From the NCBI RefSeq assembly GCF_016841685.1, contig NZ_JAENYR010000021.1:1-48736 (forward strand): 48,736 bases of DNA, given 5' to 3'. Shown in pieces: positions 1,716-9,853 of the stretch. Each line of letters begins with the position of its first letter. The stretch's first letter is position 1. The DNA is from Thiohalomonas denitrificans (lineage in GTDB: Bacteria; Pseudomonadota; Gammaproteobacteria; Thiohalomonadales; Thiohalomonadaceae). The position numbers and the translations under genes are program-made. The notes beneath the pieces were generated by a model. That model did no database searches, was not told the DNA's origin, and saw only the letters and a program-made list of their open reading frames with translations.

Positions 1716-4700
1716 TTGAGAGTCGATCCAAAGACCATTACACGCGCCCTGCTAATCGAGGATTGCGGCCATGGTGCCTACGAGCGGGGCCGGGGCTATT
1801 TCCATCAGGGGCGCGCCAGGGTTGTCGAATTGCAGCCGTTCAGCGCCGGAGTGTCGCTGTTGACTACCAATCGCGGCAGTGGACGGCGAGTTTATGACCA
1901 GACCATCGAGATCCAGGCTACGTTCTATGGCACCTCTATCGAGGGCTTCTGCAGCTGCCCTGTCGGCTTTAACTGCAAGCATGTGGTGGCCGGCTGCCTC
2001 GCCTGGCAGGAACAGGCGAGCGCCGGGGCGGGCATGGTCCCCTCCGGTGGCTTCGAGTGGTGGCTCGCCCGCTTCACGGGGAGTAATACGGCCGAAGGCC
2101 ATGAACCGCCCGAGGCGCTACTGTACCTAATCAGCGGTGCGGCCCACGGCGGGGATGTCGAGGTGGATTTCGCCATCGCCCGGCGCAAACGCGACGGCGA
2201 CTGGGGCAAGGGGCGCAGGGTGAATCTCTCCACCCTGGCGACCCCGTACAGTCTTCCCCGCTACATGCAGCCTGGCGATGAAGAGATCATCTCGTTGCTG
2301 GCGGCGGGCAACCCTTATCAATGGGGCCGGACCGGCCTCAAGGGTGCCGCCGGCCATACGGCCTTGATGCTGATGCTCGACAGCGGCCGCGCCTTTTGGG
2401 GCGAACATCGCGCCGGGCCGTTGCAACCGGGCGCCGAGCGCGATGCGGATATCTCATGGGAGAGAATCGACGGCGGCTATCGACTACGGCTCGGCTCGAG
2501 CGGTTTGGGCCGCAATGTGCCTGTCAAGCCGCCCTTGTACCTCGATTCGGTACATCATGAGGTGGGTCCGATACGCCTGCCGACGGGAATCGATGCCGAA
2601 AACCTCGACCTCATCGACCAGGCCCCGCTGGTGGCGGAACGCGATGCCAAGGCCATCAGCCGGATGCTCGCGCTACGCCACCCCGAGTTGCCCACGCCCG
2701 CACCGGTGTCGGTGACGGAGTTGCACGCCTCCCCTACTCCCGTCCTGAAGCTGCACCTGAACGGCGAACAACCGCTCGATTCCCGTCTCGCGCTCTCTTT
2801 CCACTACGGCGAGAGCGATATCGACGGGGCCGACCCGGCGCCGGTGGTAGCGCGGGAACAGGGCGAAGGGCTGGTCCACATCCACCGTGATTTCCCGGCC
2901 GAGAACATCGCACGCGAACAGCTCCTCGGCGAGGGGATGGAACCGTTGGCGGAACGGCCCGCGCACTTTGGCCTTTCCCGCGAGGGGCGGGACCGGCAGG
3001 GGGCGCTCGCCGACTGGTTTGATTTCCTCGAGACCGGCGTGCCCCGGCTGCGAACACAGGGATGGCGGATTGAAGAGGCGGTGGAGTCGACCCTTAGCCT
3101 GAGCCGGGCCGGTGAGATTGAGGCGGAGGTCGAGGATTCGGACAACGACTGGTTCGGGCTGCGCTTCGACCTGGAAATCGACGGGAAAAAGGTGCCGCTG
3201 CTGCCGCTGGTCAGTCAGCTGATCGGCGATTACCGCCCCGGCGAACTCCCGGAGACGCTCTATCTCGACGCCGGTGCCGGGCGCTATATCGCCGTGGCGG
3301 GCAAGCAGATAGAGCCGGTGCTACAGACCATCATCGACCTGTTCGACAAGACGGAGGGCGGCGACTCCCTGCGCTTGCCGCGCGTTGACGCGCCGGCACT
3401 GCTGGACCTGGGCGAGACCCGCGTCAAGGGCGGCGAAAGCCTGAAGAAGATGGCACAACGCCTGCGCGACTTCGACGGCCTGCGCGAGGCGAAGGTGCCG
3501 ATGACCTTCAAGGGGACCCTGCGCGGCTATCAGCAGCAGGGAGTCAACTGGCTGCAGTTCCTGCGCGAATATGGCCTAGCCGGGATCCTGGCCGACGACA
3601 TGGGGCTGGGCAAGACGGTGCAGGCCCTTGCCCACCTGACCATCGAAAAGCGCGCCGGGCGGATGAAGCGGCCCAGCCTCATCGTTGCCCCGACCAGCCT
3701 GATGGGCAATTGGCGGCGCGAGGCGGCGCAATTCGCGCCCGGACTCAAGGTGCTGGTGCTGCACGGCCCCGACCGGCACGCCCGTTTCGATATGATCGAC
3801 GCGCACGACCTCGTGCTTACCACCTATCCACTGCTGCCCCGAGACCGCGAGGTGCTCCTGGAACGCGACTATCACTACCTGATCCTCGACGAGGCGCAGC
3901 AGATCAAGAATCCCCGTGCCCAGGCGGCGCAACTGGTGCGGGCCATCCAGGCCAACCACCGCCTTTGTCTCACCGGCACGCCGATGGAGAATCACCTGGG
4001 CGAGTTGTGGGCGCAGTTCGATTTCCTCCTGCCCGGCTTTCTCGACAGCCGCGAGGCGTTTACCCGCATCTACCGCACCCCGATCGAAAAGCAGGGCGAC
4101 GCCGAGAAGCTGCAGCGGCTCACCCGGCGCACCGCGCCATTCATGCTGCGCCGCACCAAGGAGGTGGTGGCCCGGGAGCTACCGCAAAAGAGCGAGTTGC
4201 TCCGCACCATTCCCATCGAGGGCCGACAGGCCACCCTCTACGAAAGCATCCGCCTGACCATGGAAAAGCGGGTCCGCGAGGCCATCGCCCACAAGGGGCT
4301 GGCGCGCAGCCACATCACGATCCTCGATGCCCTGCTCAAGCTGCGCCAGGTCTGCTGCGATCCCCGCCTGCTGCCAGCGGGCACCAAAGGCGGCAAGGGC
4401 GCCCACTCGGCCAAGCTGGCGATGCTGATGGAGCTGCTGCCGGAGCTGCTCGACGAGGGGCGGCGCATCCTGCTGTTCTCCCAGTTCACCACCATGCTCG
4501 GACTGATCGAGACGGAACTTGCCAAGCGCAAGATCGCCTACAGCAAACTGACGGGGCAGACCCGCAACCGCGATGAGGCCATCGAGACCTTTCGCGGCGG
4601 CGAGGTCAACCTGTTCCTCATCAGCCTCAAGGCGGGCGGCGTAGGTCTCAATCTCACCGAGGCCGATACCGTGATCCACTACGATCCCTGGTGGAACCCG

Positions 4701-4913
4701 GCGGTCGAATCCCAAGCCACCGATCGGGCCCACCGCATCGGCCAGGATAAACCGGTGTTCGTCTACAAGCTCCTCACGGAGGGGACGGTGGAGGAGAAGA
4801 TCCTCGCGTTACAGGAGCAAAAGCGCCGGCTCGCCGACAATATCTACGGCAAGGGGCGCAAGGAGGACGAACTGCCCATCGACGCCGATACCATTAAAAC
4901 CCTGCTGGCGTAA
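1716..4913 (+). CDS. SWIM zinc finger and Swi2/Snf2 family DEAD/DEAH-box ATPase
   Basis: This 1065-residue protein is a nucleic-acid-dependent translocase of the Swi2/Snf2 superfamily. A SWIM zinc finger is visible at residues 79-89 (CSCPVGFNCKH, the CxC...CxH pattern). A long middle region without a recognised motif follows. The helicase core occupies the last 450 residues: Walker A DDMGLGKT at about residue 630, DEAQ box (ILDEAQQIKN) at about 723, LTGTPMEN, and motif VI DRAHRIGQ near 1007. The start is TTG 1716, since no in-frame ATG lies near the SWIM domain and no strong ribosome-binding site is visible. It stands alone between repeats. Its biological role is not evident from context; DNA or chromatin-protein remodelling is inferred from the family. 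Confidence 0.92.
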   Translation: MRVDPKTITRALLIEDCGHGAYERGRGYFHQGRARVVELQPFSAGVSLLTTNRGSGRRVYDQTIEIQATFYGTSIEGFCSCPVGFNCKHVVAGCLAWQEQASAGAGMVPSGGFEWWLARFTGSNTAEGHEPPEALLYLISGAAHGGDVEVDFAIARRKRDGDWGKGRRVNLSTLATPYSLPRYMQPGDEEIISLLAAGNPYQWGRTGLKGAAGHTALMLMLDSGRAFWGEHRAGPLQPGAERDADISWERIDGGYRLRLGSSGLGRNVPVKPPLYLDSVHHEVGPIRLPTGIDAENLDLIDQAPLVAERDAKAISRMLALRHPELPTPAPVSVTELHASPTPVLKLHLNGEQPLDSRLALSFHYGESDIDGADPAPVVAREQGEGLVHIHRDFPAENIAREQLLGEGMEPLAERPAHFGLSREGRDRQGALADWFDFLETGVPRLRTQGWRIEEAVESTLSLSRAGEIEAEVEDSDNDWFGLRFDLEIDGKKVPLLPLVSQLIGDYRPGELPETLYLDAGAGRYIAVAGKQIEPVLQTIIDLFDKTEGGDSLRLPRVDAPALLDLGETRVKGGESLKKMAQRLRDFDGLREAKVPMTFKGTLRGYQQQGVNWLQFLREYGLAGILADDMGLGKTVQALAHLTIEKRAGRMKRPSLIVAPTSLMGNWRREAAQFAPGLKVLVLHGPDRHARFDMIDAHDLVLTTYPLLPRDREVLLERDYHYLILDEAQQIKNPRAQAAQLVRAIQANHRLCLTGTPMENHLGELWAQFDFLLPGFLDSREAFTRIYRTPIEKQGDAEKLQRLTRRTAPFMLRRTKEVVARELPQKSELLRTIPIEGRQATLYESIRLTMEKRVREAIAHKGLARSHITILDALLKLRQVCCDPRLLPAGTKGGKGAHSAKLAMLMELLPELLDEGRRILLFSQFTTMLGLIETELAKRKIAYSKLTGQTRNRDEAIETFRGGEVNLFLISLKAGGVGLNLTEADTVIHYDPWWNPAVESQATDRAHRIGQDKPVFVYKLLTEGTVEEKILALQEQKRRLADNIYGKGRKEDELPIDADTIKTLLA

Positions 4914-5149
4914 ACTCGGACACACCTTCGCACTGCCCAAATTATGCTTGTGTAGCATAGAACGGCGGATGCGTCGGTTGTACTCTTTGAACGCCCCCCC
5001 GGTTCTCCTCCCGCCATCGGCTCTCGCTCTCTCTGGCTTTGGCCATGGGGACCTCCTGGGCGGTCATGATCGTGATGGCGTTGTAGCAAGCTGCTACAGG
5101 GGGGGACCAGCGCTAGGACAGCCCCTCCAGGGTAAACGCATTCTCACAC

Positions 5150-5366
5150 TTTGCCGGCGAGCAAACCAAATCCTTGATAGCAGGTACGCTGTGAATACGA
5201 CCTGCAGGGATGTAGAAGTGAAGATGATGCAGGAGCAATCATCTTTCATCCGTGTACGCTCGACGGCAGCATCCCTCGACAAGTGTGCTCCTGCATTGTC
5301 TAACACCGCCATCCCTGGCGGCGTGCTGCCGACGACCTGCTATCAAGGACTGACACCGCTCGCTTC
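5150..5366. repeat. Family B hairpin repeat, copy B1
   Basis: An imperfect palindrome begins with GCCGGCGAGC...TCCTTGATAGCAGGTACGCT and ends with the inverted motif ACCTGCTATCAAGGA near 5334-5350. It contains inner arms such as GATGATGCAGGAGCAATCAT. Related copies lie at 15436-15560 and 28101-28186. The rest of the gap 4914-5650 holds no gene I can support. Confidence 0.75.
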
Positions 5367-5650
5367 AAAGTAGGCGGTTGCCCTGACAGCCCCTCGATAG
5401 GGAGCTCGCATCGGGTTTCGCCGAATGACCCTTGGGCCGACGGGGTGTCAACCTTCGGCATTGGAAATCAATGTCTCAGGGGAGGCCGGGCGTTTTTTTA
5501 TACAGCCCGCCAAGAGCTGATTTGATTGCTGTCTTCAACGGCTGCTCATCCAGAAGCCTATTTTCGGAATAGACCGCTTGCCTACTCGGTACGGTCACAA
5601 GATCGTAATCATTCTGACATTATCAATCACTAGGGTGGCAACATCATCGG

Positions 5651-6961
5651 TTGCCTGTTCACCCTATCGTAATGACTCAGAAAATCGACTCGCTGATTCT
5701 GTCAGTTCCCGCAGTTTCGCCGAATATATCCATCGAGGAAGTCGGCGAATATTTCCTGAAGGACGAATTCAAGGCCCTGCTTTCCATTCCGGTGGTCGAA
5801 GCGGGTAAACCGGTTGGTGTGGTCAGCCGTTACCAGATGATGAATATCTTTATCAAGCTATATGGCCGCGAACTGCACGGGCGCAAGCCTGTATCCCGGA
5901 TCATGAATGTCCATCCGGTAACGGTCTCTTCGGACCAGTCCATGGAAGAGGCAAGCCGCTATATCACGCGCAACATCGGCTTTCCCATCACCGAGGACTT
6001 TATCATTGTTGATGATGGCGGGGCTTATACGGGTGTCGGCGTGGTGCTCGATCTACTCAAGGCGATGGAGCACCAATTGGTTAAACACGGAAAGGAACTC
6101 TCCGTTGCCTACAACGAACTCAAGTCGTCACAGGCACAGCTCATCCAGTCGGAGAAGATGGCCTCGCTGGGACAGATGGTGGCCGGCGTCGCCCATGAGA
6201 TCAATACCCCCTTGGGCTACGTGCGCAACAATGTCGAGCTATTCCGGGAGAACCAGCGTCAGCTAAGTGGGTTGCTTGGTGCACATGGCCTATTGCTCGA
6301 TGCACTTCACGCAGAGGATCCGGACGACGAGCTGATCATGGAGCGGCTGGCGCAGATCAAAAAATGGCACCGGCTGGACGGACAGGAGACGGAGACGCTG
6401 TTCGATGACACCTTCTTTGGTATCGACCAGATAGCAGAGTTGGTTGCGAGCCTGAAGAACTTCAGTCGGGTAGATCAGGCTATGGCCGATAACATCAGCA
6501 TCAACGAGTGTCTCGATACCACGCTCAAGATTGCCCACAACACCCTCAAACAGAAGGTGACCGTTGTCCGTGATTACGGTTCGCTGCCGGCAATCCGCTG
6601 CATGCCGTCGAAACTCAATCAGGTGTTTCTCAATCTGGTGACCAATTCTGCCCAGGCCATCGATGAGAACGGCAAACTTCTGATCAAGACCTTCACCAAG
6701 GACAGCTTCCTATTTGTGGTAGTCGAAGACGACGGCAGAGGCATACCCGAAGACGTCCTGCCGCAGATCTTTGATCCCTTCTATACGACCAAACCGGTCG
6801 GTCAGGGTACCGGCCTTGGGTTGGCGATCAGCCATCAGATCGTCGAGGAGCACGGTGGTGCGATTCGCGTCTCCTCCAGGGTGGGCGTTGGTACGCGTTT
6901 TGTCATCCGGCTTCCGCTCGACGGGGCGCCGGCACAACACACACTCGTCGCCGGCGGGTGA
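5651..6961 (+). CDS. CBS-domain sensor histidine kinase
   Basis: This 436-residue soluble histidine kinase has no signal peptide or transmembrane segment. Residues about 15-140 look like a CBS domain pair (SVPAVSPNISIEEVGEYF; SRIMNVHPVTVSSDQSMEEA), which in known proteins binds adenine nucleotides. A linker helix leads to the dimerisation domain with the phospho-accepting His182 in VAHEINTPLGY. The HATPase domain carries an N box (LNQVFLNLVTNSAQA), DDGRGIP, and FDPFYTTKPVGQGTGLGL. The start is uncertain: TTG 5651 has a weak AGGGTGG upstream, and ATG 5672 is the alternative. It runs directly into a response-regulator gene, so the two probably form one signalling operon. A cytoplasmic energy signal is an inference from the CBS domains. 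Confidence 0.9.
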   Translation: MPVHPIVMTQKIDSLILSVPAVSPNISIEEVGEYFLKDEFKALLSIPVVEAGKPVGVVSRYQMMNIFIKLYGRELHGRKPVSRIMNVHPVTVSSDQSMEEASRYITRNIGFPITEDFIIVDDGGAYTGVGVVLDLLKAMEHQLVKHGKELSVAYNELKSSQAQLIQSEKMASLGQMVAGVAHEINTPLGYVRNNVELFRENQRQLSGLLGAHGLLLDALHAEDPDDELIMERLAQIKKWHRLDGQETETLFDDTFFGIDQIAELVASLKNFSRVDQAMADNISINECLDTTLKIAHNTLKQKVTVVRDYGSLPAIRCMPSKLNQVFLNLVTNSAQAIDENGKLLIKTFTKDSFLFVVVEDDGRGIPEDVLPQIFDPFYTTKPVGQGTGLGLAISHQIVEEHGGAIRVSSRVGVGTRFVIRLPLDGAPAQHTLVAGG

Positions 6962-6981: not shown

Positions 6982-7902
6982 ATGAGTGAAATCACCCTAC
7001 TACTCGTCGACGATGAGGAGCGGATCCTGCGCTCCCTCGCACCCTTGTTCCGCAACCAGTACCGGGTTCTCGCCACCACCGAACCGGAAGAGGCACTGAC
7101 CATCCTGAGGCGTGAAACCGTAGATGTTATCATCAGTGACCAGCGGATGCCGGCCATGCTTGGGGCAGAACTGCTCTACAAGACGCGTAGAATCTCGCCC
7201 CCGACCATGCGCATTCTGCTTACCGGTTATTCCGACCTTGGCGCCGCCATCGCGGCGGTCAACGAGGGCGAAATCTTTCGCTACGTTAGCAAGCCGTGGA
7301 ATGCCCAAGAGCTGCGGGATACGGTAGCGGAGGCCGCGGCTATCGCCCAGCAGGGCTTCTCCGGTCCGGCTTGCCTACCCACCGAGACGGAGCGCGACAG
7401 GGTGAAGGTCCTGGTGATCGAAGACGATACGAAGACAATGGATACCATCCGGGAGATCACCCGGGACGGTTGCGACGACGAGTGCGAGCTGTACTGTGTG
7501 GATAACCTCGAAGAGGCGACGGAGCTGCTCCGCTGCGAGGAGATCGGGCTTATCGTGACAGAGTTGCGCGTCGACGAAGAGGACACCATCAGCACCATCA
7601 AAGCACTGAAGCGCTATCAGCCCAACGTGGTCACGGTGGTCGTGACGAGCTACCGCGACAACATGGCCCTCATCGGGCTCATTAATGAAGGACAGATCTA
7701 CCGCTTTTTACCCAAGCCGGTGAGTCGCACGCTGCTCGCCCGCAGCCTGCAGTCGGCCCTGCATCATCACCGCCTGTTACGTATCGCTCCGACAATCCGC
7801 GATCGGTATACCGTCCTGCCTTCCCTCGAGGAAAGGCAGGACATGCTGCCCGCCCGTCTGCGTGGTCTCATCACCCGCATGCGTCGGTGTTCGTCGACAT
7901 AG
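6982..7902 (+). CDS. Tandem-receiver response regulator without output domain
   Basis: This 306-residue protein consists of two receiver domains and a short basic tail, with no DNA-binding, GGDEF, EAL or HD-GYP domain. Receiver 1 (residues about 5-120) is canonical: acidic pair D10/D11, phospho-acceptor D53 in IISDQRMP, T81 and K104 in SKPW. Receiver 2 (about 142-260) keeps the acidic cluster EDD, T222 and K245, but has Glu194 (IVTELRV) where the acceptor Asp should be. That makes it non-phosphorylatable and possibly phospho-mimetic. The start at ATG 6982 is preferred over GTG 6958 because of the CCGGAGTG sequence upstream. It lies 20 bp after the CBS kinase, its probable partner. It may act by protein-protein contacts or as a phosphate sink. 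Confidence 0.9.
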   Translation: MSEITLLLVDDEERILRSLAPLFRNQYRVLATTEPEEALTILRRETVDVIISDQRMPAMLGAELLYKTRRISPPTMRILLTGYSDLGAAIAAVNEGEIFRYVSKPWNAQELRDTVAEAAAIAQQGFSGPACLPTETERDRVKVLVIEDDTKTMDTIREITRDGCDDECELYCVDNLEEATELLRCEEIGLIVTELRVDEEDTISTIKALKRYQPNVVTVVVTSYRDNMALIGLINEGQIYRFLPKPVSRTLLARSLQSALHHHRLLRIAPTIRDRYTVLPSLEERQDMLPARLRGLITRMRRCSST

Positions 7903-8074: not shown

Positions 8075-9853
8075 ATGAAAAAAAGGATCATCACGCTGGC
8101 TGTAACGGCCGCTCTCACCTCACTGGTCACCGCCTGTGTCGATGAGGGTGATGACGGTATTGATGGTGTCGACGGGCTCGATGGCACCACGAGTAACACC
8201 AATCCGCTCCGACGATTGGCCACTGCACCGTTAGGTGCCGAGTTCACGGGCATGTTCCTCAACGACGACGGCACCTTCTTCCTCAACGTGCAGCACCCAA
8301 GCATCTCCAACACCACCGCCGATGCCAACGGCTACGTCTACGACAAAGGAACCGTCGGCGCCATCGTCGGCAAGGATTTCCGAAGTCTGCCCGATGATAT
8401 CGCAGAACTGGATCTGCCGATTATCAATGCCGACAAGGAAGTGGTAATGACCGCCGTCGGCAGCTATCAGGTATTGGCACAGCAGGACGATGCCGCTGCC
8501 GGTATTGACCTGGGTAAAATCTTCGCCGCCGACAGCACCACCGAACTCGCCAGCAGCGACGATCCGGACTTCAACGGCGCCATTTCGACCGGAAACACCG
8601 GCGAGTACTTCCTCTACACCAACTGGGAGTACCGTCCCGGCGGCATGAGCCGAATCCAGCTCGGCGGACTCGACCCGAATAACGGTTACGGCTCTGTCAC
8701 CAGGGAAGGAATGCTCGACTTCTCCGGTGTCGAAGGCACGTGGGTCAACTGCTTCGGCACCGTTAGCCCGTGGGGCTCCATGCTCTCTGCCGAGGAGCTC
8801 TACTTCGACGACACCGCCGACTGGTTCGACGCCACCAACAGCAGCCCGCAGTCACTGGCCGCCTATCTCGGCTACCCCACAGACGGCAGCGGCCAGTGGC
8901 CCAATCCCTACCGCTACGGCTATAACGTCGAGGTGGGTGGCAACAACACCGCCACTGAGGCCGCTTTGGCCAATGTGGAGATCAACAAAAACGAGACCCT
9001 GGGCCGCTTCTCCCATGAAAACGCCGTGGTAATGCCCGATGAGAAGACCGTCTTCCTCAGCGACGACGGCACCGATGTCGTCCTCTTCAAGTTTGTCGCC
9101 GATAGCGCCGGGAACATGAGCGCCGGTACCCTCTACGCCGCCAAGGTCACCCAGGCTGCCGGCGTCAAGGATCCAGCAGAGGCGGCCTTCGCCGTCGAAT
9201 GGGTTGAACTGGCCCACGGTGACGAGGCCGACATCGAAAGCTGGATCGCCGAATACGACAGTGCCACCGTAGCCAGCCCGAACTACATCACCGACCAGCA
9301 GGCGAACGACTGGGCCGAGGCCAAACTGCACCAGGATCTCGACGGCAGCGGCAGCATCGCCACCAGCCCGTTCAGCGATGATCGCCCCGCCTTCCTCGAG
9401 AGCCGCAAGGCCGCCGCCGCCCTGGGTGCCACCGACGAGTTCCGCAAGATGGAAGGGGTCAATATCAACTACGGTCGGGCCTCCACCTGGTGGAACGCAG
9501 GCGCCACTGACGGTGCCCGGGCCTACATGTACCTGGCCATGTCCAGCTTCGACAACGGTATGAGCGACGAAGTGGGCGACATCCAGCTCGACGGTACCAA
9601 CAGCAAGTGCGGTCTGGTCTACCGCATGAAGCTGGAGAAGAACGCCGCGGGTGAGGTCGACGTCAAGACCATGGTTCCGGCCATCGTCGGTGGTCCCTAC
9701 TACGCTGACCGTGAGGTCAACGCGTGTAACGTCAACAACATCTCCAATCCGGACAATCTGGTGATCATGGATGATGGCCGCGTGCTTGTCGGTGAAGACA
9801 GCGGCAACCACGAGAACAACATGGTGTGGCTCTTCGACGACCCGGCCATTTGA
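8075..9853 (+). CDS. PhoX-like (DUF839) lipoprotein
   Basis: This 592-residue exported protein resembles the PhoX/DUF839 beta-propeller phosphatase family, which uses calcium and iron. The N-terminus is a lipoprotein signal peptide with lipobox LVTAC and Cys21 as the lipidated residue, rather than the twin-arginine signal usual for PhoX. A DDGIDGVDGLDG stretch follows, possibly a flexible or metal-binding linker. Family-like segments include NVQHP near residue 74 and, at the C-terminus, DDGRVLVGEDSGNHENNMVW. ATG 8075 has an AGAGGA ribosome-binding site. It is transcribed alone, with a possible terminator after it. Phosphatase activity is inferred from the family; a scaffold or other hydrolase is possible. 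Confidence 0.8.
   Translation: MKKRIITLAVTAALTSLVTACVDEGDDGIDGVDGLDGTTSNTNPLRRLATAPLGAEFTGMFLNDDGTFFLNVQHPSISNTTADANGYVYDKGTVGAIVGKDFRSLPDDIAELDLPIINADKEVVMTAVGSYQVLAQQDDAAAGIDLGKIFAADSTTELASSDDPDFNGAISTGNTGEYFLYTNWEYRPGGMSRIQLGGLDPNNGYGSVTREGMLDFSGVEGTWVNCFGTVSPWGSMLSAEELYFDDTADWFDATNSSPQSLAAYLGYPTDGSGQWPNPYRYGYNVEVGGNNTATEAALANVEINKNETLGRFSHENAVVMPDEKTVFLSDDGTDVVLFKFVADSAGNMSAGTLYAAKVTQAAGVKDPAEAAFAVEWVELAHGDEADIESWIAEYDSATVASPNYITDQQANDWAEAKLHQDLDGSGSIATSPFSDDRPAFLESRKAAAALGATDEFRKMEGVNINYGRASTWWNAGATDGARAYMYLAMSSFDNGMSDEVGDIQLDGTNSKCGLVYRMKLEKNAAGEVDVKTMVPAIVGGPYYADREVNACNVNNISNPDNLVIMDDGRVLVGEDSGNHENNMVWLFDDPAI

Follow-up and report, generated by a model that had tools for sequence, protein, structure and literature searches.

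We find that the gene at 6982..7902 (+) of the window, the whole stretch of 48,736 nucleotides analysed from a Thiohalomonas denitrificans contig, most plausibly belongs to a two-gene system, a reading to which we give a probability of roughly one half. It would pair a CBS histidine kinase with a regulator made of a receiver and a pseudo-receiver, in which Asp53 of receiver 1 is phosphorylated and receiver 2 serves as a dimer or partner surface. The residue that drew attention to the gene, Glu194 at the acceptor position of receiver 2, appears from comparison with its relatives to be neither a loss confined to this strain nor a mimic shared by the whole family, since Asp and Glu are mixed among the orthologues and Glu is reconstructed as the likelier older state around the window; it is a swap that recurs in the family. 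A Glu at the acceptor site is often taken for a built-in phosphomimic. The family described here provides a natural test: its lineages differ in having Asp or Glu at this site, while the neighbouring receiver, apparently live, does not change and the kinase core is conserved.

The regulator's reading frame starts with the ATG at 6982 and encodes 306 amino acids, arranged as receiver 1, linker, pseudo-receiver and C-terminal tail according to the translation, the Pfam scan and an AlphaFold2 model. Response_reg (PF00072) was matched in two stretches. The first, at residues 7-115, marks receiver 1 (residues about 5-124; 6994..7353, +), whose acceptor Asp53 is encoded by GAC (7138-7140, +). The second marks receiver 2 (residues about 141-262; 7402..7767, +), assigned as a pseudo-receiver from this match, a match to PF21194 and the pocket statistics given below. 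PF21194 (TadZ) matches the whole protein at 29.9 bits, the cut-off being 27.4, with its best stretch at residues 140-198. TadZ has an ATPase domain after its receiver, and despite this match the Pfam scan found no ATPase domain in the regulator. The PF21194 type is counted among pseudo-receivers in the excerpted text of PMC12632262. Glu194 has the codon GAG (7561..7563, +) and is placed opposite Asp53 by an hhalign profile alignment of the two receivers (probability, 99.8; E, 3.8e-29), and receiver 2 of the window also has the acidic pair E147-D148, T222 and K245; the first-pass annotation had thus located the Glu, D53, T222, K245 and the acidic pocket correctly. In the window, receiver 2 is an Asp-less receiver, matching the receiver profile and missing the acceptor Asp; 57 of 109 relatives have Asp there and by that residue fall outside the definition.

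No recognised output domain, catalytic or DNA-binding, was found by the Pfam scan of the protein, and none of the 25 NCBIfam matches listed for each of the two proteins passed the curated cut-off. The earlier statement that the regulator has no output domain therefore holds for recognised domains, while a conserved tail follows receiver 2 (residues 263-306; 7768..7899, +). Its conserved part spans residues about 270-305, with P270 in 101/109 and R301 in 83/109 relatives, and the AlphaFold2 model predicts a helix at 291-305 (block pLDDT of 65-77 for residues 281-306). Signalling by partner binding, as had been proposed, would be in keeping with the lack of any recognised catalytic or DNA-binding domain.

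Upstream of the regulator lies its likely cognate histidine kinase (5651..6961, +), with two CBS domains (Pfam CBS in two stretches, HisKA and HATPase_c). Its ORF starts with TTG, has an ATG at 5672 and ends 20 bases before the regulator's ATG. A histidine kinase homologue is present in the fetched stretch of 104/108 loci and in 7/7 further loci from a phylum-wide draw, and the CBS part was detected by BLAST in 69 of the 108, which agrees with the CBS kinase as the partner first suggested. Four loci (L019, L096, L139, and L150) have no kinase homologue in the fetched stretch, and in L064 the homologue sits on the other strand. Pfam shows the CBS part replaced by other sensors in some cases, namely, DAHL in L121 and L118 and dCache-HAMP in L055.

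Clustering of ORFs around the 108 loci gave a kinase cluster of 82 loci and a regulator cluster of 76 loci. Beyond these two, no nearby gene common to several genera was found around the 108 loci, in a search reaching more than 3.5 kb upstream in 71 loci and downstream in 65, so that wider neighbours may escape it. Candidates for a third conserved gene were rejected: clusters of 21 and 17 loci are opposite-strand ORFs of the kinase and regulator, and four smaller clusters (11, 10, 6, and 5 loci) are confined to Pseudomonas, Ectopseudomonas and two unclassified gamma-proteobacterial MAGs. In the window, a PhoX-type phosphatase gene lies directly downstream on the same strand (8075-9853; PF05787, E 8.4e-36), and an SNF2-type helicase gene lies upstream of the kinase (1716-4913; PF00176, E 1.3e-69). 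Two loci show additional receiver genes. In Candidatus Achromatium palustre (L056, about 3958-6892), one CBS histidine kinase is followed by three tandem-receiver genes, and L139 (G136:C2) has two adjoining receiver genes, the first with Gly at the receiver 2 acceptor.

Across the alignment of 109 distinct proteins (117 less 8 duplicates), receiver 1 looks like a live receiver, as the first-pass annotation had assumed: its active-site residues D10, D11, D53, T81, and K104 are invariant (109/109), with Pro at D+4 in 108/109, Gly at D+8 in 109/109 and Gly at T+1 in 108/109. In receiver 2, the first acidic residue is acidic in 107/109, Thr/Ser is present in 108/109 and Lys in 103/109, and the second acidic position carries an acid in just 62/109; Pro at D+4 is found in 3/109, Gly at D+8 in 0/109 and Ala at T+1 in 11/109. 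Excerpts of PMC4395418 and PMC12632262 describe Asp-less receivers in general as mostly keeping the first acidic residue and Lys and mostly losing the second acidic residue. The best-conserved stretch of receiver 2, and its lowest-entropy segment, comprises the end of alpha4 and beta5 (residues 233-246, LINEGQIYRFLPKP; 7678..7719, +), with L233, N235, and P246 in 109/109 and Q238 and R241 in 105/109. Receivers and pseudo-receivers commonly dimerise or bind partners through alpha4-beta5 (PMC12632262, in part). The receiver 2 profile scores a median of 72 bits against the family's own receiver 1 (n = 109) and a median of 51 bits against 36 other receivers matched; its being nearer on median to its own receiver 1 is consistent with an origin of receiver 2 by duplication inside the same group, despite one outside receiver at 81 bits, the highest of those 36.

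The AlphaFold2 model, built from 52 sequences, has a mean pLDDT of 90.9 and a pTM of 0.87. In a Foldseek search with this model, the ten best chains are all PleD (best E, 1.6e-14), the Caulobacter protein of architecture REC-PsR-GGDEF, which shares with the regulator a live receiver followed by a pseudo-receiver and is the best two-domain match. VIA-align aligned PleD 9g86_A over residues 3-270 (Z, 20.6; 259 aligned; rmsd, 7.0), and at this rmsd the modelled resemblance would extend to domain order and not to packing. Single receivers outscore PleD in VIA-align Z, with 3hv2 at 23.2 and HupR at 21.8, both matching receiver 1; of the solved structures, the HupR receiver and its D55E mutant (2vuh) are some of receiver 1's closest relatives, the best by sequence. 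HupR is, however, a DNA-binding regulator, and the Glu of D55E is engineered and lies in HupR's only receiver. Unlike PleD, with which it shares 17-20% identity, the regulator has no GGDEF domain in the Pfam scan, stops 44 residues past receiver 2 and ends in the conserved tail instead. Because the GGDEF domain is absent, the regulator is not a PleD, and by analogy it may work like PleD's front half. In PleD, phosphorylation is turned into a change of dimer or partner contacts, according to the excerpts of PMC12632262.

The mechanism we favour is as follows. A signal sensed by the CBS histidine kinase would lead to phosphorylation of Asp53 in receiver 1, with phosphotransfer from the kinase presumed. 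Receiver 2 would be a degenerate copy of this kind of receiver; phosphorylation would mainly take place elsewhere, and the fold, the Thr-Lys pair and the near-invariant alpha4-beta5 face would be retained. Phosphorylation of Asp53 would change the packing of receiver 2 against receiver 1, an allosteric step assumed from PleD, and receiver 2 would relay the change as a surface for dimerisation or for a putative partner. The acid at position 194 would be kept for the sake of the pocket, perhaps pairing with Lys245 in a contact that either Asp or Glu could make. In the open-licence literature searched on CBS histidine kinases, tandem receivers and kinase fusions, we recognised no paper on a kinase-REC-pseudo-receiver system.

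The distribution of residues at position 194 rests on several searches. Among 56 related genomes, full-length relatives within the window's family share 59, 56, and 49% identity with the regulator, with a few more beyond. The gene is patchy, being found in 4/20 genomes of the order at E 1e-35, the window's own included, and not in the single other genome of the genus at the same threshold. The first eight sequences were already mixed, with Asp in the three closest orthologues, among them the two nearest (59 and 56% identity), and Glu in the window and four more distant relatives. A survey of the class matched the regulator in 23/369 genomes at E 1e-50, and the named loci, 80 in number, were taken from the top of at least 558 confirmed candidates, ranked by likeness to the window. 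Judged by record title, 79 of the named relatives comprise 51 from gamma-proteobacteria, 21 from beta-proteobacteria, 5 unassigned, 1 from alpha-proteobacteria and 1 from Sphingobacteriia, the last two of which may be mislabelled assemblies. In the 109 distinct proteins, position 194 is Asp in 57, Glu in 49, Gly in 2 and Ser in 1, a ratio of Asp to Glu that is not a fair sample since the named loci were picked by likeness to the window; it is acidic in 106/109. A phylum-wide draw, in which 12/398 genomes matched at E 1e-60, added seven loci with Asp in 5, Val in 1, Asn in 1 and Glu in 0.

A Glu in place of the acceptor Asp is a substitution of a known kind. About 4% of receivers have no acceptor Asp, and Glu is the commonest replacement at 26% of the Asp-less (PMC4395418, in part), and in the Rim15 receiver most entries from Ascomycota have Glu as the acceptor residue, and those from Basidiomycota and Mucoromycota have Asp (PMC8510515, in part). 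The regulator family shares with Asp-less receivers the receiver fold without Asp and the replacement by Glu, but differs from them in the alternation of Asp and Glu at one site. Rim15 of fungi is split in a like manner within its own family and also has a protein kinase part; it is, however, eukaryotic.

That Glu194 is a true phosphomimic, locking receiver 2 on while receiver 1 merely gates it, we regard as unlikely, even though Glu can partly activate many response regulators and the idea is termed an "attractive hypothesis" for Asp-less receivers in the excerpts of PMC12632262 and PMC4395418. The same excerpts of PMC12632262 report that residue replacement disproved it in some proteins, and the Bdellovibrio RomR D55E variant shows localisation and gliding like the wild type (PMC6428892, in part). 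In the present family, the window keeps T222 and K245, as a mimic would want, but Thr/Ser (57/57 Asp members, 49/49 Glu members) and Lys (54/57 and 47/49) are equally kept in both groups. The second metal ligand is likewise acidic in 32/57 Asp members and 29/49 Glu members (Fisher p, 0.84). By raw counts over the 109 relatives, no coupling of Glu194 to other pocket residues is seen except at K-3, which is aromatic in 54/57 Asp members versus 38/49 Glu members (p, 0.019, with kinship ignored). It could be a sign that Asp and Glu members do not function alike; the kinship-aware comparison rests on 3 supported contrasts and is weak for K-3 or any pocket residue. Overall, Asp members and Glu members seem to show the same degree of decay in the receiver 2 pocket.

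The history of the site was read on two quick trees with long branches and weak deep nodes, one from IQ-TREE built without column 194 and the other from FastTree. On the IQ-TREE quick tree, column 194 needs a minimum of 13 changes, or 10 when only Asp and Glu are considered, and on the FastTree tree the minimum of Asp/Glu changes is 12. Column 194 is less changeable than most of receiver 2 (13 changes versus a median of 28), with 24/121 columns changing as little or less. When Asp and Glu are pooled, it needs 3 changes only, compared with 48 for the second metal ligand column, or 20 when that column is scored as acidic/non-acidic, which suggests that a carboxylate is kept at 194 and not which one. 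Glu is stable inside some clades, in 8/8 rows with Nevskia and Solimonas and 8/8 rows with Moraxellaceae, a point for the phosphomimic; family-wide it is exchanged with Asp, kinship-corrected contrasts are few (3 on strongly supported branches, 10 on all branches), and the nearest orthologues have Asp. The designed mimic put forward by the first-pass annotation thus finds no backing in the Asp/Glu pattern, and a mimic role within the Glu lineages is possible. Orthologue swaps at position 194 could reveal if the residue matters.

A role for receiver 2 as a phosphate sink or slow second acceptor, active in the Asp members and switched off in Glu lineages so that the two differ in function, is also rather unlikely. 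All five receiver 2 active-site residues including Asp are kept in 31/109 relatives, of which Pseudomonas chengduensis (L123) is an example, and these could be phosphorylatable on receiver 2; Asp clades can also be long-lived (Pseudomonas clade, 20/20 rows; Gallionella clade, 10/10 rows). However, the second metal ligand is non-acidic in 25/57 Asp members, including the two nearest orthologues, and T+1 is Ala or Gly in only 9/57 (Glu members, 2/49; p, 0.06). A further 29/109 relatives are complete in the receiver 2 pocket but for Glu, the window among them; with 4/5 active-site positions kept, it is one of the better-preserved copies. The two nearest orthologues align E-G at the metal pair, one of them with an extra adjoining residue, and the pocket around their Asp would appear poorer than that around the window's Glu, unless that residue shifts the one alignment.

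Small-ligand binding by receiver 2, on the model of the ShkA pseudo-receiver, which binds c-di-GMP on alpha4-beta5-alpha5 (PMC12632262, in part), seems to us quite improbable. Alpha4-beta5 is the most conserved surface of receiver 2 and ShkA appears among the Foldseek matches at rank 15, but the corresponding stretch is highly conserved in receiver 1 too, and its conservation may be inherited.

The first-pass annotation had held that orthologues with Asp would suggest a strain-specific loss, and such orthologues exist. Under a two-state model with midpoint root, run on both trees with free or equal rates, the node joining the window and its two nearest Asp orthologues has P(Glu) of 0.92, 0.76, 0.91, and 0.78, and its parent 0.97-1.00; because Glu is favoured at this node, the window's Glu is probably older than the Asp of those two. 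Strain-specific decay of an ordinary receiver in one genome, suggested by the Asp of the three closest orthologues, is very improbable against this reconstruction and the 49 relatives that share Glu.

Some relatives of the regulator are joined to a Ser/Thr kinase. In seven beta-proteobacterial loci (L097, L098, L106, L107, L113, L114, and L121), found by a kinase motif pattern (HRDxKPSN) in the upstream frame, the kinase precedes the two receivers, and Pfam confirmed Pkinase plus two receivers in 3/3 of the fusions scanned. All seven have Asp at the receiver 2 acceptor. Fused members occur near a histidine kinase, that of L121, the only one tested, carrying DAHL. A basic-hydrophobic motif of the tail is found in 72/102 stand-alone members versus 0/7 fused ones (p, 0.0003), a comparison that ignores kinship and counts little, the fused rows being close kin. 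The fusions give a measurable output to a module otherwise without one. It is conceivable, though distinctly unlikely, that Ser/Thr kinases use the REC-pseudo-receiver pair as a portable phospho-switch, with the stand-alone tail docking on a partner kinase in trans and lineages toggling Asp and Glu in receiver 2 to set the resting state. Elsewhere in the window's own genome, two kinase domains score above the cut-off.
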